From the NCBI RefSeq assembly GCF_000970205.1, contig NZ_CP009512.1, forward strand, positions 2,976,001 through 3,040,000: DNA of 64,000 nt. Reading direction: 5' to 3'. Position 1 is the stretch's first letter, and the number at the start of each line of letters is the position of its first letter. Under the pieces are notes generated by a model that saw only the letters and a program-made list of their open reading frames with translations, did not search any database and had not been told where the DNA came from. A program made the position numbers and the translations under genes. Source of the stretch: Methanosarcina mazei S-6 (GTDB lineage: Archaea; Halobacteriota; Methanosarcinia; Methanosarcinales; Methanosarcinaceae). Shown here one piece after another: positions 4,676-13,948 of this stretch.

Positions 4676-6340
4676 ATGGTCTTTATGGCAATCAGTACTT
4701 CAACTCTTATCCTGTTTGTAATTATTTATCTTGCAGCCACTTTCTATGTCGCTTACCTGGGATACAGGAAGAACTCCCAGACAGACGGGTATATGCTTGC
4801 AGGTAGAGGAGTTCACCCTGCGATCATGGCACTCTCGTATGGAGCTGCGTTTATCAGTACTTCCGCAATAATCGGGTTTGGAGGAGTAGCCGCTTCGTTA
4901 GGGATGGGGCTCCTGTGGCTTGTGTTTATGAATATCTTTTTTGGAATCTTCATTGCTTTCGTAGTTTTTGGTCCCCCAACACGCCGCATGGGACTGAACC
5001 TGGGAGCCATAACGTATCCCGAATTTATAGGAAAGCGCTTCCAGTCAAAGTTTATTCAGGCATTTTCCGGGATTTTAATAGGCATTTTCATGCCTCTTTA
5101 CGCTGCAAGCGTTATAATAGGAGCCGGAAGATTTCTTGAGACCAGCCTTGGGATCAATTACAATATTGCCCTTATAATTTTCACCATTATAATCGCTTCT
5201 TATGTGATAAAGGGCGGTCTTCTCTCGGTAATGTATGTGGATGCCATGCAGGCTATTCTTATGTTGCTTGGAATGGGTTTCCTGCTTGTCTTTACTTACG
5301 TTAAGCTTGGAGGAGTTGTTGAAGCCCACCAGGCCCTAACAAGTATGTTAAACCTTGTCCCTCAGGCACTTATAGATCAGGGGCATAGAGGATGGACTTC
5401 AATGCCTGAAGCTGGCTCCCCTATATGGTGGAACATGATTTCCACAATCATAATGGGAGTCGGAATAGGTGTTCTTGCACAGCCCCAGCTCGCAGTCAGG
5501 TTCATGACTGTAAAGGATGACCGTTCCCTGAAAAGAGCGGTTGCTGTTGGAGGTCCTTTTATCCTGATGATGGCAGGAGTCGCTTATGTTATAGGGGCTC
5601 TTTCGAATGTGTATTTCTACAGGACTATGGGCATGATTTCCCTTCAGGTTGTGCCGGATGGGAACACTGACCTTATAATGCCCACTTTCCTGAACCATGC
5701 CATGCCTGAAATGTTTGTAACGCTCTTCATGCTCAGCCTGCTTTCAGCTGCAATGTCCACAGCAGCTGCCCAGTTCCATACAATGGGCACAGCCATAGGA
5801 TATGACGTCTACCAGCAGAGCATTATGAAGGGCAAGTCTACAGCAACTGTCCATGTTACAAGATTGGGAATTACCTTTACCATCCTGGTTGCAGTCGTTC
5901 TTGCGTATATCCTGCCCGGAAGCATTATTGCCAGGGCTACTGCCATGTTTATGGGCCTTTGCACTTCTGCCTTCCTGCCCCTGTTCATCGGAGCACTTTT
6001 CTGGAAGCGCACAACAAAAGCCGGAGCAACTGTAAGCCTTGTAATAGGGTCTTTAAGCAGCCTGTTCTGGTTGACATTTGTCCATGCAAAAGAAGCAGTG
6101 CCCCTCGGGATCTGCCAGGCAATTTTCGGAAAAGAAACACTACTTGCAGGCACCTGGACTGTTGTAGACCCGATCCTGATCGCAACCCCTCTCTCTCTCC
6201 TTGCGCTGGTCGCAGTAAGCCTTATGACACCCCAGTTTTCACCTGAATTCCTGAAGAAAGCTTTCAGTAGAAGGTTTGAAGACGAAGAGGAAAAGTCAGA
6301 AGCAGCATCACAAAAGAAGGTTGAATCTACAGGCGTTTAA
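4676..6340 (+). CDS. Sodium:solute symporter (SSS family)
   Basis: A polytopic membrane protein of 554 residues with about 13 hydrophobic spans. The SSS-family features are present: an N-terminal YLGYRKNSQTDGYMLAGRG stretch, the helix-breaking SYGAAFISTSAIIGFGG sodium-site region, and the later LSAAMSTAAAQFHTMGTAIGYD segment. It should couple sodium influx to uptake of a small organic solute; the substrate is not readable. The frame has two possible starts, 4676 and 4688. The second (MAISTS) is as likely, and no strong ribosome-binding site decides between them. The C-terminus is a charged Glu/Lys-rich tail of about 30 residues. It probably forms a unit with the 53-residue protein just upstream. 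Confidence 0.92.
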   Translation: MVFMAISTSTLILFVIIYLAATFYVAYLGYRKNSQTDGYMLAGRGVHPAIMALSYGAAFISTSAIIGFGGVAASLGMGLLWLVFMNIFFGIFIAFVVFGPPTRRMGLNLGAITYPEFIGKRFQSKFIQAFSGILIGIFMPLYAASVIIGAGRFLETSLGINYNIALIIFTIIIASYVIKGGLLSVMYVDAMQAILMLLGMGFLLVFTYVKLGGVVEAHQALTSMLNLVPQALIDQGHRGWTSMPEAGSPIWWNMISTIIMGVGIGVLAQPQLAVRFMTVKDDRSLKRAVAVGGPFILMMAGVAYVIGALSNVYFYRTMGMISLQVVPDGNTDLIMPTFLNHAMPEMFVTLFMLSLLSAAMSTAAAQFHTMGTAIGYDVYQQSIMKGKSTATVHVTRLGITFTILVAVVLAYILPGSIIARATAMFMGLCTSAFLPLFIGALFWKRTTKAGATVSLVIGSLSSLFWLTFVHAKEAVPLGICQAIFGKETLLAGTWTVVDPILIATPLSLLALVAVSLMTPQFSPEFLKKAFSRRFEDEEEKSEAASQKKVESTGV

Positions 6341-6623: not shown

Positions 6624-7883
6624 TTAATTTTCTTTTCTCACAGGCAGGGTTTGCCCGCCATGAGGCATAACGTGGATCTTTGCTTCAGGGTTGTCCGAAA
6701 GGACTGCAGACAGGGCTTCCTGAACGCTCCCCATAGGAATAAAGAATGCATCTCTGGCTTTTTCTTCCGGAAGCTTCGAGACAAGGTAAAGCCTGAACTT
6801 TTTTGCAGCGATTGCAACGATTGCACTCTTGTGCCCTCCGAACTCAAAGCAGTGCTTGAAGCGCTCTATTGCATCATCAGGATTTTTGCACTGCATGTTC
6901 CAGCACTCATAGACCTGGTTTCCTATTCCTTCCTCACATTCCGCTACAAGGATGATAGAGCCTCCTTCCTTTACAGCCTGAGTTGCATTATCAAGGGCTT
7001 TGTTTGCCTGGTAGAGGTTGATGTCTTTGGGATAGCCGCCGCAGGAAACGACAACAGCGTCTGCAGGCTCTACAGGCGCTTTATACATGGCATCCACAAA
7101 CTCAATCCCTTTCCTGTGGGCAGCAATGAAATCGCCTGCAACTGCGGCAACGATTCCTTTCTTGCTGTCAAGTATGACATTAAGAATGAATTTAAGACCA
7201 AAGGCCTCTGCAGCTTCCTCCATATCCTGCCTGACAGGGCTGTCTACCCTTCCGGAAACTGCATTTTCTTCGATCATCATTTTATGGTTTGTAAGCACGG
7301 ATTCCTCGGAACTTACTCCCGGGAGTATGGACTTTGCCCCTCCGCTGTACCCTGCATAATAATGGAATTCAATTCCACCGGTACCAATGACAAAATCAGC
7401 ATCGAGAACTTCCTCAAAGACCTCAATAGGAGTGCCACGGCTGGTTACCCCTATCCTCCTGCACCTGGAAGTGTCGTGCTGGATGCAACGGATTTTTTTG
7501 TAAATATCTTCCCCGACCAGCTTCTTAGATTCCTCTTCAGTCTGCTGGCGGTGAAGCCCGAGAGCAAATACAATGGTAATGTTCTCATCTTTTGCCCCGC
7601 AGAGGTAAAGCTCTTCGAGCAGGGGAGGAAGAATCTTTGCTGTAGGAGTGGGCCTTGTGACATCACTCACAATAATTGAAATTTTCGAATCCGAATTTAC
7701 AATCTCGGATAATCTCCTGCTTTTTACTGGATTTTCGAGAGCCTTTTTGATTAAGAGGGCTCCATCCTCCCTTTCTTCAGGTTCAGAAGGAAGGATTATA
7801 CTGGAGAAGTTTTTTTCGGGGATACTCAGCTCAGAAAAACCATTTCCGAAAGCAAGTGGAATCTTTTTTATATTTGTCATCAT
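6624..7883 (-). CDS. LarA-family nickel-pincer racemase/epimerase (copy 1)
   Basis: Member of the lactate racemase LarA (DUF2088) family, which uses a nickel-pincer nucleotide cofactor to racemise or epimerise 2-hydroxy acids. The metal and cofactor residues known from LarA are all present. They are a His in GLHR, a His in FHYYAGYSGG, the tethering Lys in SGGAKSILPG, and a His in LTNH. The N-terminal SDVTRPTP motif is also intact. The frame could be extended to 7934, but that would place the TATA box inside the gene. The ATG at 7883 aligns exactly with the start of the neighbouring paralogue and gives 419 residues. The cofactor genes larB, larC and larE are not in this window. The substrate may not be lactate. 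Confidence 0.88.
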   Translation of the reverse strand: MMTNIKKIPLAFGNGFSELSIPEKNFSSIILPSEPEEREDGALLIKKALENPVKSRRLSEIVNSDSKISIIVSDVTRPTPTAKILPPLLEELYLCGAKDENITIVFALGLHRQQTEEESKKLVGEDIYKKIRCIQHDTSRCRRIGVTSRGTPIEVFEEVLDADFVIGTGGIEFHYYAGYSGGAKSILPGVSSEESVLTNHKMMIEENAVSGRVDSPVRQDMEEAAEAFGLKFILNVILDSKKGIVAAVAGDFIAAHRKGIEFVDAMYKAPVEPADAVVVSCGGYPKDINLYQANKALDNATQAVKEGGSIILVAECEEGIGNQVYECWNMQCKNPDDAIERFKHCFEFGGHKSAIVAIAAKKFRLYLVSKLPEEKARDAFFIPMGSVQEALSAVLSDNPEAKIHVMPHGGQTLPVRKEN

Positions 7884-7908
7884 GTTCGTGCCGGTGATTT
7901 CGTATTGA

Positions 7909-7918
7909 TTATATAAAA
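7909..7918 (-). promoter_or_regulatory. TATA box of larA-like copy 1
   Basis: On the reverse strand the sequence reads TTTTATATAA, centred about 30 nt before the start codon at 7883. With the usual archaeal TATA-to-start spacing of about 26 nt, transcription would begin within a few bases of the ATG, giving a nearly leaderless mRNA. The flanking bases are shared almost completely with the promoter of copy 2. Confidence 0.6.
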
Positions 7919-8057
7919 CCATATAGGTAAACAATAACCGAGATTAAAATTACGCTTCAAACTTCAGTTGAATAAACAGTTCAGTTTTTACCAGGACATT
8001 AACAGTTTTCAATTTCTACCAGTATGTTTCATTATTGCGGCTTCCCTTACTATTTCC

Positions 8058-9320
8058 TTATTTACGTACTGGAAGAGTCCACCCTCCATCGGGTATTATG
8101 TGAACTTTTGCTTCAGGGTTTTCGGCAAGAATGGTTTCAAGGGCTTCCTGCACACTTTTTGCAGGAATGAAAAAAGCTTTTATGCTTTCATCCTCGGAAA
8201 GTTTTGAAACAATATAAAGCTTGAACTGTTTTGCAGCTTTTGCAACTATCGCGCTCTTGTGCCCTCCAAACTCAAAGAAGTTCTTGAAGCGTTCTATGGC
8301 GTCATCAGGGCTCCTGCACTCCCTATTCCAGCACTCGTATACCTGGTTTCCGATTCCTTCCGCACATTCAGCTACGAGTACTATGGACCCTCCTGCTTTT
8401 ACAGCTGGGACGGCATTTTCCAGAGCCTTTGTTGCCTGGTAAAGGTTGATGTCTTTAGGGAAGCCTCCGCAGGAAACAATGACCGCATCTGCAGGTTCAA
8501 CCTTTACTTTGTACATGGAATCTACATATCCTGCCGCTTCCCTATGAGCCTGGATGAAGTCTCCGGCAACGGCAGCAACGATTTCTTTTTTGCTGTTGAC
8601 CACTACATTCAGGATAAAGCGAAGGCCTGCAATCCCTGCGGCTTCTTCGATATCCTTCCTTGCGGGGCTGTCAGCTCTCCCCAGAAGAGGGTCACCTTCG
8701 AAGAGTTTGCTATAATGGCTATGGAATGAAAGTACCGATTTTTCCGAACTTACTCCCGGAAGGATAGACTTTCCTCCACCGCCATAGCCTGCGTAATAAT
8801 GAAATTCCACGGTCCCGATACTGATTATCAGGTCTGTATTCAGAGCATCTTCGAAAACCTCGACAGGTGTGCCAAAACTAGTCTCTCCTATATGAACACA
8901 CCTATTCCTGTCGTGCTGCACAAACCGGATATTTCGAGAAACATCATTCCCCAGAAGCTTTCTGCACTCTTCTTCAGTCTGCTGGCGGTGTAGCCCGAGA
9001 GCAAATACAATGGTAATATTCTCGTCTTTTGCCCCGCCGAGGTAAAGCTCTTCGAGCAGGGGAGGAAGAATCTTTGCCGTAGGAGTGGGTCTTGTGACAT
9101 CACTCACAATAATTGAAATTTTTGAATCCGGATTTACAATCTCGGATAATCTCCTGCTTTTTACGGGATTTTCGAGAGCTTTTTTGATTAAGAGAGCTTC
9201 ATAATCCTTTTCTTCAGGTTCAGAAGGAAGGATTATACTGGAGAGGTTTTTCTCGGGAATATTCAGCTCAGAAACGCCGTTTCCGAAAGCAAGCAGAATC
9301 TTTTTTAAGTTTGTCGTCAT
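8058..9320 (-). CDS. LarA-family nickel-pincer racemase/epimerase (copy 2)
   Basis: Paralogue of the preceding gene, 420 residues, in tandem on the same strand and sharing most of its sequence. The first 110 residues are almost identical, including SDVTRPTPTAKILPPLLEEL. All key residues are kept: GLHR, FHYYAGYGGGGKSILPG with the cofactor-tethering Lys, and the later His in LSFH. Divergence is concentrated in the middle of the protein (about residues 110-250). There this copy has FVQHDRNRC where copy 1 has IQHDTSRC, and it carries a short insertion after LSFHSHYS. The copies could therefore differ in substrate. This is the upstream copy, with its own promoter. Confidence 0.88.
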   Translation of the reverse strand: MTTNLKKILLAFGNGVSELNIPEKNLSSIILPSEPEEKDYEALLIKKALENPVKSRRLSEIVNPDSKISIIVSDVTRPTPTAKILPPLLEELYLGGAKDENITIVFALGLHRQQTEEECRKLLGNDVSRNIRFVQHDRNRCVHIGETSFGTPVEVFEDALNTDLIISIGTVEFHYYAGYGGGGKSILPGVSSEKSVLSFHSHYSKLFEGDPLLGRADSPARKDIEEAAGIAGLRFILNVVVNSKKEIVAAVAGDFIQAHREAAGYVDSMYKVKVEPADAVIVSCGGFPKDINLYQATKALENAVPAVKAGGSIVLVAECAEGIGNQVYECWNRECRSPDDAIERFKNFFEFGGHKSAIVAKAAKQFKLYIVSKLSEDESIKAFFIPAKSVQEALETILAENPEAKVHIIPDGGWTLPVRK

Positions 9321-9854: not shown

Positions 9855-11759
9855 ATGGATAAAGAGAGGATTTCCTATCACGAATCCGTTCAAAAGATGT
9901 ATGAGCGGATAAAGGCAGACAATATGACAAATGTCTGGGACCGTTATGAGGCTCAGGGAATAGGAGGGGTCCCTGACAGAAGATGCACTTTCTGTATGGC
10001 AGGAGCCCGCTGTGACCTGTGTTCGAATGGTCCCTGCCGTTCGGACGCTTCAAAAGACAAAAGAGGGGTTTGCGGGATCACTGCCGACGGAATGGCAATG
10101 AGGATGATGCTACTCAGAAACGTAATGGGGGCTTCGACCTACCACTACCACACAGATCAGACCATCCGGACTTTGAGAGAAACTGCAAGGAATAAAACTC
10201 CCTACAGCATCAGGGAGCCTGAGAAACTAAAAACATTCGCCAACAGGTTGGGAATAGATATTTCAGGAAGTGATGCTGAAATTGCCCTTAACCTGTGCGA
10301 ATTTGTTGAAAAAGACTTTAACCGGCCCGCGTATGAGCCAAGCAGAATAGTTGAGATCCTTGCCCCTCCTGAAAGAAAGAAGAGGTGGGAAGAACTGGGG
10401 ATATTTCCGGGAGGAATCTACGGGGAAATGATGCTTTCCACAAGCTCCTGCCTCACAAACGTAGACGGGTATTATGTAAGCCTTGCCCTGAAAGCAATGC
10501 GCCTTGGAATTGCAATGGCATACCAGAGCCAGATAGTAAACGAATACTGCCAGGACGTCCTTTTCGGGATTCCAAGACCCCACACTATGAGGGTGGACCT
10601 CGGGGTTCTGGACCCTGAATATGTAAATGTGCTGCCTAACGGGCACGAGCCTTTCCTGGGATTTGCCATGGTACAGCTTGCGAGAAAACCTGAGTGGCAG
10701 GAAAAAGCAAAGGCGGCGGGGGCAAAAGGTCTCAGGGTCATTGCCAGTATAGAAACCGGGCAGGAAATGATCCAGAGGTGGGAGGAAGACGATGTATTTT
10801 ACGGTTTTACAGGGAACTGGATTTCCCAGGAAGCGGTGCTTGCGAGCAGGTGTGTTGACCTTTTTGCCGCAGACATGAACTGTTCACTTCCAGTTGCTCC
10901 GCTTTACGCCGAGAAGTACAATTTTAAACTTATGCCTGTGAGCGACCTTGTGGCCTTCGAGGGGATAGAAGAGCGCCTTAATTATGACCCTGTAGAAGCT
11001 GAAGAGCAGGCAGCAAAGCTTCTGGATATGGCAGTTGAAAATTTCAAGAATAGAAACAGCTCAGGAGAAGCGGCACTGAATTTTCCAGCAGGAGAAGCTG
11101 TTGTCGGATTCTCAACTGAAAGTATCCTTGATGCCCTTGGAGGCACCCTTGACCCGCTACTGGATGCCATAAAAAGCGGCGCAATCAAAGGAGTTGTCGG
11201 GATGGTATCCTGCACCACATTACGTGACTACGGGCAGGACGTGCACAGTGTTGCCGTGGTAAAAGAACTGATCAAAAGGAATATCCTTGTCCTTTCCATG
11301 GGTTGCGGGAACGCAGCCATGCAGGTGGCAGGCCTCTGCAGCCCCGAAGCCAGAGAATATGCTGGAGACAGCCTTAAGGCTGTTTGTGAAGCACTTGGAG
11401 TCCCGCCAGTGCTAAGTTACGGGACATGCACCGACACCGGTCGGCTTGCTGATCTCCTTGGAGCTATATCCGGAGCCCTTGGAGGAGTGCCCGTTCCTGA
11501 CCTACCTGTTGCTGCCGCAGCTCCCGAGTACATGGAGCAGAAAGCTACAATAGATGCTATCTTTGCTCTTGCGCTGGGGCTCTATACATATGTAAACCCC
11601 GTACCTACCGTTACCGGGGCACCGAACCTTGTCAAATTGCTTACAGAAGACTGCCGGGAAGTCACAGGAGGCCTCCTGAATGTAGAAACGGATGCATTAA
11701 AGGCAGTTGACGGGATAGAACAGCATATAATGGAAAAGAGAAAAAAGCTTGGGATCTGA
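9855..11759 (+). CDS. cooS: Anaerobic CO dehydrogenase catalytic subunit, variant CooS
   Basis: Monofunctional Ni-Fe carbon monoxide dehydrogenase family protein, 634 residues, full length. B-cluster cysteines are at C53, C56, C61 and C73. The D-cluster motif is C44-x2-C47 rather than the C-x7/8-C of the classical enzyme; the CX2C form is known from Desulfovibrio vulgaris CODH, where it binds a [2Fe-2S] cluster. C-cluster positions that align are His264 (in NGHEP), C343 (in DMNC), C453, C484 and C525. However, the ligand equivalent to Cys295 of CODH-II falls at E300, in SIETGQE instead of CCTGNE. The catalytic-region Lys (EQKA) and a His-rich TYHYH segment are kept. No cooF, cooC or hydrogenase genes adjoin it. 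CO oxidation, another redox reaction or a sensing role are all possible. Confidence 0.9.
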   Translation: MDKERISYHESVQKMYERIKADNMTNVWDRYEAQGIGGVPDRRCTFCMAGARCDLCSNGPCRSDASKDKRGVCGITADGMAMRMMLLRNVMGASTYHYHTDQTIRTLRETARNKTPYSIREPEKLKTFANRLGIDISGSDAEIALNLCEFVEKDFNRPAYEPSRIVEILAPPERKKRWEELGIFPGGIYGEMMLSTSSCLTNVDGYYVSLALKAMRLGIAMAYQSQIVNEYCQDVLFGIPRPHTMRVDLGVLDPEYVNVLPNGHEPFLGFAMVQLARKPEWQEKAKAAGAKGLRVIASIETGQEMIQRWEEDDVFYGFTGNWISQEAVLASRCVDLFAADMNCSLPVAPLYAEKYNFKLMPVSDLVAFEGIEERLNYDPVEAEEQAAKLLDMAVENFKNRNSSGEAALNFPAGEAVVGFSTESILDALGGTLDPLLDAIKSGAIKGVVGMVSCTTLRDYGQDVHSVAVVKELIKRNILVLSMGCGNAAMQVAGLCSPEAREYAGDSLKAVCEALGVPPVLSYGTCTDTGRLADLLGAISGALGGVPVPDLPVAAAAPEYMEQKATIDAIFALALGLYTYVNPVPTVTGAPNLVKLLTEDCREVTGGLLNVETDALKAVDGIEQHIMEKRKKLGI

Positions 11760-12754: not shown

Positions 12755-13948
12755 ATGAAAATGAAGATGGAAATGAAAATCAGCCTTGTAATCCACGGAC
12801 CCGAAGTAATCGATTCGGGAGAAACTAAAATAGTTCTGGAAAAACTTTCCTGCCTCGGCGAAGTAAAAGCGGAGCTTGGCGGAACCATGGGAAAAACAGC
12901 CGTAATTGACGCCGGGCTTGAAGTAATCATAGATACAGGCAGGCACTTAAAGCCAAGCGTCTGCATAGAATCTTTTTTTGAAACAGCCGACCTTATTTGC
13001 CTTCTGAACCGGGGAAAAACTCTGGAAACAGGCAAAATCTTCGGAGCAAAGGTCGCTGCCCGCCTGAAAGATCCCGAAAAGAAGCCCCTGGTTCAGATCG
13101 AAAGCCCTGGCTGTTCCTGTGGAAAGCTTATTCCCCTGAATAAAAAAGCTGAAAGCTTTATTGAAAAACTCTCCGAAACCCTCGGGGTTCCTGCAGAAAG
13201 CCCTCTGATTTTCCACAACCCGATTTCCACAGAAACTTGCGCAAAAACCGGAATAACCAGAATAATCCGCGAAATCTCAGGGGTTCTTCCGGGAGAAAAT
13301 ATCTTTGTAAATGGGATTGTTATCGGAAAAGCATCATCTTCAAAAATAAGGATAATCTCCGAAAACGGCTTCATCACTGCAATCGAAGGCGGAGAAATAA
13401 AAGATCACGGTCTAGAAAAGTTACACAATTACAAAAAAAGAGACCCTGTAGACCTTGCAGGAGCCTGGATAAAAAGCGGAGACATCAGAAGAAGCATTCC
13501 CTCACTTCCGGAGGTCCGGGAACAAAACTCCAGCGCCATCAAATCATATTTTATTTCCGAAGACAGGGCGGGGAGTATCATACCTGGAAAAGTTGTGCTT
13601 ATTGACCATGAAGCTGAGAAATCCTACGAACTTTCTGCAGGGGCTGAGCTTGTGGTTACGGTTGGGGATGACACTACAGCCATAGCAGGAGATGTCCTCT
13701 ACAGGCTTGGCATCCCTATCATCGGGATCACAGACGGAGACTGCGACAATGTTACCTGCGAGCCAAAAACCTTTTCGGGATCGATTATCCTCAGGCTGGA
13801 ACCTGGAAACGATGATATCGTGGGCATGAGGATAAAGAAGGAGCTTTTAAAAGGACAAAATTCGGCTGTTTTTGAGGATCTTCTAGCTTTTAAAGAAGAG
13901 GTTCTGAAACTGGCAGAGCCTTCCATTGAGGCTGTTTTTAAATATTGA
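12755..13948 (+). CDS. Conserved archaeal protein of unknown function (DUF2117-like)
   Basis: A 397-residue soluble protein. It opens with ISLVIHGPEVIDSG, and has a glycine-rich ELGGTMGKTAVIDAG segment, a Cys cluster SPGCSCGKL near residue 115, and a C-terminal domain with VVTVGDDTTAIAGD and GIPIIGITDGDCDN. From memory this matches the methanogen family DUF2117; no function is established that I know of. The GDDTT and TDGDCDN acidic clusters look like metal- or nucleotide-binding loops (inference). Four in-frame ATGs (12755, 12761, 12767, 12773) start the gene and none has a clear ribosome-binding site. The last gives MKISLVIHGPE and may be the real start. Confidence 0.75.
   Translation: MKMKMEMKISLVIHGPEVIDSGETKIVLEKLSCLGEVKAELGGTMGKTAVIDAGLEVIIDTGRHLKPSVCIESFFETADLICLLNRGKTLETGKIFGAKVAARLKDPEKKPLVQIESPGCSCGKLIPLNKKAESFIEKLSETLGVPAESPLIFHNPISTETCAKTGITRIIREISGVLPGENIFVNGIVIGKASSSKIRIISENGFITAIEGGEIKDHGLEKLHNYKKRDPVDLAGAWIKSGDIRRSIPSLPEVREQNSSAIKSYFISEDRAGSIIPGKVVLIDHEAEKSYELSAGAELVVTVGDDTTAIAGDVLYRLGIPIIGITDGDCDNVTCEPKTFSGSIILRLEPGNDDIVGMRIKKELLKGQNSAVFEDLLAFKEEVLKLAEPSIEAVFKY

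Follow-up and report, generated by a model that had tools for sequence, protein, structure and literature searches.

The window analysed here, a 64,000-nucleotide stretch of the Methanosarcina mazei S-6 genome, contains a cooS-like gene whose product carries Glu where CO dehydrogenases (CODHs) have a C-cluster cysteine, which raises the question of whether it encodes a CODH at all. The open reading frame (positions 9855-11759, + strand) starts with ATG, encodes 634 amino acids and has no internal stops. Its product scores 758.6 bits against NCBIfam TIGR01702 (cut-off 478) and also matches Pfam Prismane, while the HCP (hydroxylamine reductase) profile TIGR01703 gives just 29.5 bits against a cut-off of 360.8. 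In a PDB sequence search CooS-V (7b7q) came first at 1.6e-200, followed by canonical CODHs from 1e-115; identity to CooS-V is 50% over the whole length. Structural group D-1 of the clade D Ni-CODHs was defined by Inoue et al. 2019, with M. acetivorans among the carriers named (PMC6344411). All features tabulated for this group are present in the M. mazei protein, with no difference found among them: a type III D-cluster, the ligand series H-E-C-C-C-C, Tyr, Lys and Glu two residues before Lys. The gene is a member of an already described and crystallised class (CooS-V, or group D-1), known from that study and from Jeoung et al. 2022. The sequence-only reading that drew attention to the gene was unaware of both the description of the class (PMC6344411) and the solved structure of CooS-V. 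The gene and its key residues are as follows (positions in the window).

9855-11759, + strand: gene of the cooS-V type (structural group D-1), assigned from the open reading frame, TIGR01702 (758.6 bits) and the best PDB match (7b7q, 1.6e-200)
9984-9995, + strand: D-cluster pair C44-x2-C47, corresponding to CooS-V C38/C41, [2Fe-2S] (cluster type from PMC9311411)
10011-10073, + strand: B-cluster cysteines C53, C56, C61 and C73, invariant in 187 aligned rows and corresponding to CooS-V C47/C50/C55/C68
10140-10142, + strand: Y96 at the acid-base His position (CODH-II His93), from the alignment; Tyr in group D-1 (PMC6344411)
10644-10646, + strand: cluster ligand H264 (CooS-V H259)
10752-10754, + strand: E300, replacing Cys295 (CooS-V E295)
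10881-10883, + strand: cluster ligand C343, preceded by N342 (CooS-V C338 and N337)
11211-11213, + strand: cluster ligand C453 (CooS-V C449)
11304-11306, + strand: cluster ligand C484 (CooS-V C480)
11427-11429, + strand: C525, aligned with C521, which forms a persulfide in CooS-V (PMC9311411)
11535-11543, + strand: E561-Q-K563, Glu two residues before Lys, at the HCP Glu494 position (CooS-V E556/K558)

The ligands were placed in an alignment of 190 CooS-type rows, including CooS-V (7b7q), Desulfovibrio vulgaris CODH (6b6v) and Thermococcus CODH (6t7j). C44, C47, H264, E300, C343, C453, C484 and C525, named earlier by eye, proved right residue for residue: they fall on C38, C41, H259, E295, C338, C449, C480 and C521 of CooS-V, so that the CX2C pair of the D-cluster and Glu300 both have their counterparts there. 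Comparison with D. vulgaris CODH, proposed in the sequence-only reading as a structure-guided check, left this numbering in place, with the same ligands on cognate residues and Cys310 opposite E300. Another cysteine that might occupy the Cys295 position was looked for in the alignment, and none fits, SIETGQE standing against CCTGNE.

The canonical C-cluster set of one His and five Cys is interrupted by Glu at the Cys295 position, and Tyr96 replaces the acid-base His93 of canonical CODHs. Y96 is one of two signature residues beyond those recognized at first; the other is E561 in the segment 'MEQK', at the position of HCP Glu494 and CooS-V Glu556, where canonical CODHs read 'SEK'. The EQKA motif is also present in both HCPs of the same genome. 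Judged through CooS-V and PMC6344411, H264, E300, E561, C343, C453, C484 and C525 make up the hybrid-cluster ligand set (His, two Glu, four Cys). Glu occupies position 300 in 133 of the 190 rows, a sample weighted towards the relatives of the query, and the residues at 11 key positions are identical in 132 of them. With canonical CODHs (CODH-II, the D. vulgaris enzyme and the second CooS of the genome) the protein shares the fold, the B-cluster, the His and four C-cluster cysteines, and with the D. vulgaris enzyme also the CX2C D-cluster; it differs in Glu for Cys295, Tyr for the acid-base His and the lack of cooF and cooC beside its gene. Two candidate markers were rejected. CX2C does not mark an altered catalytic cluster, since 18 Cys295-bearing rows have it too, and Glu561 is not unique to group D-1, as four clade C-like rows (Tyr and Gln at the acid-base positions) carry this Glu.

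Some rows depart from these patterns. One (L123) keeps Glu300, but has Gly in place of Cys47. Another (L168, genome G059) is a CooS with Asp at position 300 (MDTGQE), neither Glu nor Cys; its D-cluster region is without the second CX2C cysteine, and it has Tyr and Glu-x-Lys like group D-1. A third CooS type, found in two Methanosarcina genomes (L203 in G007 and L204 in G020), carries Asp at the second C-cluster Cys (343), in agreement with the clade B pattern of PMC6344411.

To see whether a whole clade shares the substitution, a tree was built from 132 representatives of the CooS-type proteins. In it all 88 rows with Glu300, among them CooS-V and the query, group together with an SH-aLRT support of 100, and the Glu300 state corresponds to one change on the tree; the Asp-bearing L168 is sister to the entire group. 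Archaeal members come from Methanosarcinaceae, Archaeoglobus, Asgard archaea, Bathyarchaeota and Thermoplasmatota, and bacterial ones from Chloroflexota, Actinomycetota, Thermodesulfobacteriota, WOR-3 and others. The predicted structure of the M. mazei protein has a mean pLDDT of 85, with values below 50 for residues 40-63 of the D/B-cluster region. Foldseek with this model ranked CooS-V first (TM 0.95). The second aligner, VIA-align, tied Thermococcus CODH (Z 55.0) with CooS-V (Z 54.7), so the fold alone is non-discriminating and was rejected as evidence for CooS-V over CODH.

The chemistry of the class has been measured on CooS-V of Carboxydothermus hydrogenoformans (629 aa; 7b7q, 7b7t, 7b95, 7b97, 7b9a), a bacterial protein from a different branch of the Glu clade. 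It has the same CODH scaffold and the same cluster ligands as the query throughout, including E295, E556, Tyr91 and the CX2C D-cluster. CooS-V contains a Ni-free Fe/S/O hybrid cluster, with Cys295 changed to Glu, and a bridging [2Fe-2S] D-cluster; it catalyzes neither CO oxidation nor CO2 reduction, is a very slow NH2OH reductase, and NO reduction by it was not detected (Jeoung et al., 2022; PMC9311411). Its channel opens solely in the reduced state of the cluster, the structure changes strongly with the redox state, and the potentials of CooS-V are about 300 mV lower than in E. coli HCP (PMC9311411). The altered active-site cluster suggested in the sequence-only reading thus agrees with a solved relative, and homology strongly supports an Fe/S/O hybrid cluster without Ni, in place of the [Ni-4Fe-4S] C-cluster, in the M. 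mazei protein.

Taken as a whole, the protein is probably a CooS-V-type homodimer with such a cluster; it would be HCP-like, probably acting under nitrosative or redox stress and uninvolved in CO metabolism. Both subunits would contribute C44 and C47 to a bridging [2Fe-2S] D-cluster, while C53, C56, C61 and C73 would hold a [4Fe-4S] B-cluster and H264, E300, C343, C453, C484, C525 and E561 the hybrid cluster. Low-potential electrons would enter via the D-cluster and pass through the B-cluster; the hybrid cluster, once reduced to its [4Fe-3S] form, would open the channel to the substrate, a small oxidised molecule that could then be reduced at the site. A reductase role is moderately supported by the gating of CooS-V and by partner genes in relatives, and the most likely function is that of a low-potential reductase akin to HCP and without relation to CO, its substrate and physiological role being inferred. 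Observed directly here are the set of ligands, the clade, an intact and conserved gene, the lack of an adjacent CooF and, in relatives, the cupin and ferredoxin in common with HCP; cluster chemistry and channel gating are borrowed from the 50%-identical crystal structure. HCP has the same cluster-ligand set and EQKA motif, whereas the query as a whole is CODH-like. The analogy may not reach as far as the substrate, because no reduction of NO by CooS-V was detected, its NH2OH rate is very low and it has potentials about 300 mV lower.

Prismane-family matches in the genome comprise the group D-1 protein, a second, canonical CooS, two HCPs and two CdhA-type proteins. The canonical CooS (L213:7871-9757) has all ligands, is followed directly by cooF and is 37% identical to the D-1 protein. 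Genome G001 has the same layout, with a canonical CooS and cooF and a separate D-1 gene lacking cooF. In terms of the literature, 'CooS1F' probably denotes the canonical pair and 'CooS2' the protein of group D-1. One HCP gene of the M. mazei genome is followed by a cupin of the same family as the D-1-linked cupin discussed below.

Within the window, neither cooF nor cooC adjoins the gene. As throughout Methanosarcina, it stands by itself, flanked on one side by two divergently oriented LarAH6-family racemase genes and on the other by a convergent gene for a UPF0173-type hydrolase. The tandem LarAH6-family nickel-dependent malate racemase genes (6624-7934 and 8058-9320, both on the - strand) score 581 and 550 bits against an NCBIfam cut-off of 500; an SSS-type sodium symporter gene (4676-6340) lies near the pair, and this layout is conserved in Methanosarcina. 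A 397-aa open reading frame (12755-13948, + strand) without NCBIfam matches is kept beside the hydrolase gene across the genus. No functional tie to the racemase pair, the symporter or the hydrolase is claimed, because this arrangement is confined to Methanosarcina, its spacing varies, the nearest neighbours lie on the opposite strand, and it is absent from other D-1 loci.

Partner genes were compared between 107 D-1 loci, 92 of them outside Methanosarcina, and 22 canonical cooS loci. Previously, D-1 genes were linked to COG1063 and HypA/B (PMC6344411), and a 2026 study of genomic context saw no clear pattern among the neighbours of clade D genes (PMC13056359). The lack of nearby cooF noted in the sequence-only reading is a property of the whole group: cooF is adjacent in 0 of 107 D-1 loci vs 13 of 22 canonical ones. 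Outside Methanosarcina, D-1 cooS often has partners on its own strand, namely a 4Fe-4S protein of ~260-320 aa, small cupins and a regulator of the Rrf2 family. For HCP itself, hcp-frdX operons (PMC545781) and an NO-induced hcp-cupin pair in D. desulfuricans (PMC5701242) have been described. Profiles of the cupin and the FrdX-type ferredoxin were built solely from HCP-adjacent genes, and 'FrdX-type' accordingly denotes a link through those ferredoxin genes and not directly to published FrdX. The cupin profile identified an adjacent gene in 13 of 107 D-1 loci and the ferredoxin profile in about 14-15 of 107, each against 0 of 22 canonical loci; 9 D-1 loci have an Rrf2 regulator next to them. At least one of cupin, ferredoxin, second cupin or Rrf2 lies on the same strand in 38 of the 92 non-Methanosarcina D-1 loci vs 0 of 22 canonical loci (p 7e-5), and within the phylum of the window the counts are 9 of 20 vs 0 of 22 (Fisher p 4e-4); these p-values are indicative and overstate independence, since the loci share ancestry. 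None of these HCP-type partners adjoins the D-1 gene in Methanosarcina itself. Homologues of the HCP-side cupin of the M. mazei genome lie 4 and 77 bp from D-1 cooS in a related genus of Methanosarcinaceae, and one compact locus (L044:1984-5674, + strand) has the full set in the order Rrf2, 4Fe-4S ferredoxin, D-1 cooS, cupin. A relative of the L044 regulator, in L069, has cysteines in close succession, which might bind an Fe-S cluster.

In 12 of about 60 D-1 genomes the D-1 protein is the sole Prismane-family protein, with no HCP, CdhA or other CooS found. Four of these genomes are single-contig (L067, L068, L070 and L080), while most of the 12 are metagenome assemblies, some of them incomplete. 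These CODH-free genomes are at odds with the published view that such genes are confined to genomes with more than one CODH gene (PMC9311411), and they argue against a role dependent on CO metabolism. As far as the literature was searched, neither the partner-gene result nor the CODH-free genomes have been reported.

Several other explanations of the unusual active site have to be weighed against a hybrid-cluster reductase. That the gene is a decaying CODH paralogue, its site lost by mutation, might be supposed from an active site that lacks one of its cysteines as well as the catalytic His. This is refuted by the conservation data, and its probability is close to nil: 15 further Methanosarcina genomes carry a full-length, unbroken copy (87-92% identity), dN/dS of 0.04-0.06 for group D-1 cooS within the genus indicates strong purifying selection, and the same key residues recur in 132 sequences, with the Glu proteins forming one clade. 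The intact copies, the dN/dS values and Glu in 133 of 190 rows show that the gene is neither an error nor a product of decay. A genuine CODH in vivo, taking up Ni despite Glu300 with the help of host maturation factors and giving, for example, protection at high CO, is very unlikely, yet it is the main rival. M. acetivorans genetics cited in reviews (PMC4652020, PMC6344411), in which CooS1F and CooS2 help to remove CO, speaks for a CO role, and CooS-V was produced in E. coli and not in its native host. The proposal of the sequence-only reading that the protein is no conventional CO oxidase is supported by the inactivity of CooS-V towards CO, but meets contrary evidence in this genetics. On the other hand, the CODH-II variants C295A and C295E are Ni-deficient and do not oxidize CO (PMC9311411), Tyr occupies the acid-base His position, and cooF and cooC are not adjacent, with a separate canonical CooS and cooF in the genome. 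Nor does a CODH function fit the occurrence of D-1 genes without any other CODH, the cooS of A. fulgidus (clade D per PMC13056359), which is not CO-regulated, or the little effect of a clade D deletion in C. autoethanogenum (PMC13056359).

A redox or gas sensor, in which the redox-dependent rearrangement of the cluster would signal to a regulator and turnover would be incidental, is unlikely, although redox sensing has been proposed for clade D (PMC13056359). The very slow turnover of the sole known substrate, together with the big redox-driven change in CooS-V, would suit a sensor, as would the Rrf2 regulator adjacent in 9 loci. In most loci, however, no regulator is adjacent; a channel gated open in the reduced state alone points to substrate reduction, and the 14-15 loci with a ferredoxin partner are in keeping with an enzyme that receives electrons from it.

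Group D-1 CooS could be a CO-independent counterpart of HCP with the same accessory genes (cupin, FrdX-type ferredoxin and Rrf2-type regulation), replacing HCP as a stress reductase in lineages without HCP or CODH. This broader proposal is tentative, with the balance slightly against it. An absence of HCP where D-1 has HCP-type partners was rejected as a statistic, although 22 of 25 such genomes have no HCP over the cut-off: HCP is over the cut-off in only 34 of 120 genomes of the phylum of the window, so there is no clear excess of absence, and HCP-free genomes are used here as individual cases. If true, the proposal would give group D-1 a function and contradict the published restriction to genomes with other CODH genes. 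Group D-1 genes are annotated as CO dehydrogenase in archaea and bacteria and are easily miscounted as CO oxidation capacity, as which they should not count. Through the HCP-type partners and the genomes with a D-1 protein as sole family member, an HCP-like role can be tested directly, and a D-1 gene is present in Methanosarcina that are amenable to genetics.

Three further cooS observations concern other loci. A D-1 cooS from a different genus of Methanosarcinaceae (L294:248-2152, - strand; G052) has an in-frame TAG at Leu position 86, and a canonical Methanosarcina cooS (L296:247-2154, - strand; G013) has one at a Glu position. Methanosarcinaceae use pyrrolysine, and these codons may be either disabling mutations or sites of pyrrolysine read-through. 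A 1377-aa open reading frame (L295:664-4797, - strand; G031) encodes a canonical CooS fused to an apparent acetyl-CoA synthase (CdhC/AcsB-like) part, and similar 1378-aa frames are present in G272 and G290.
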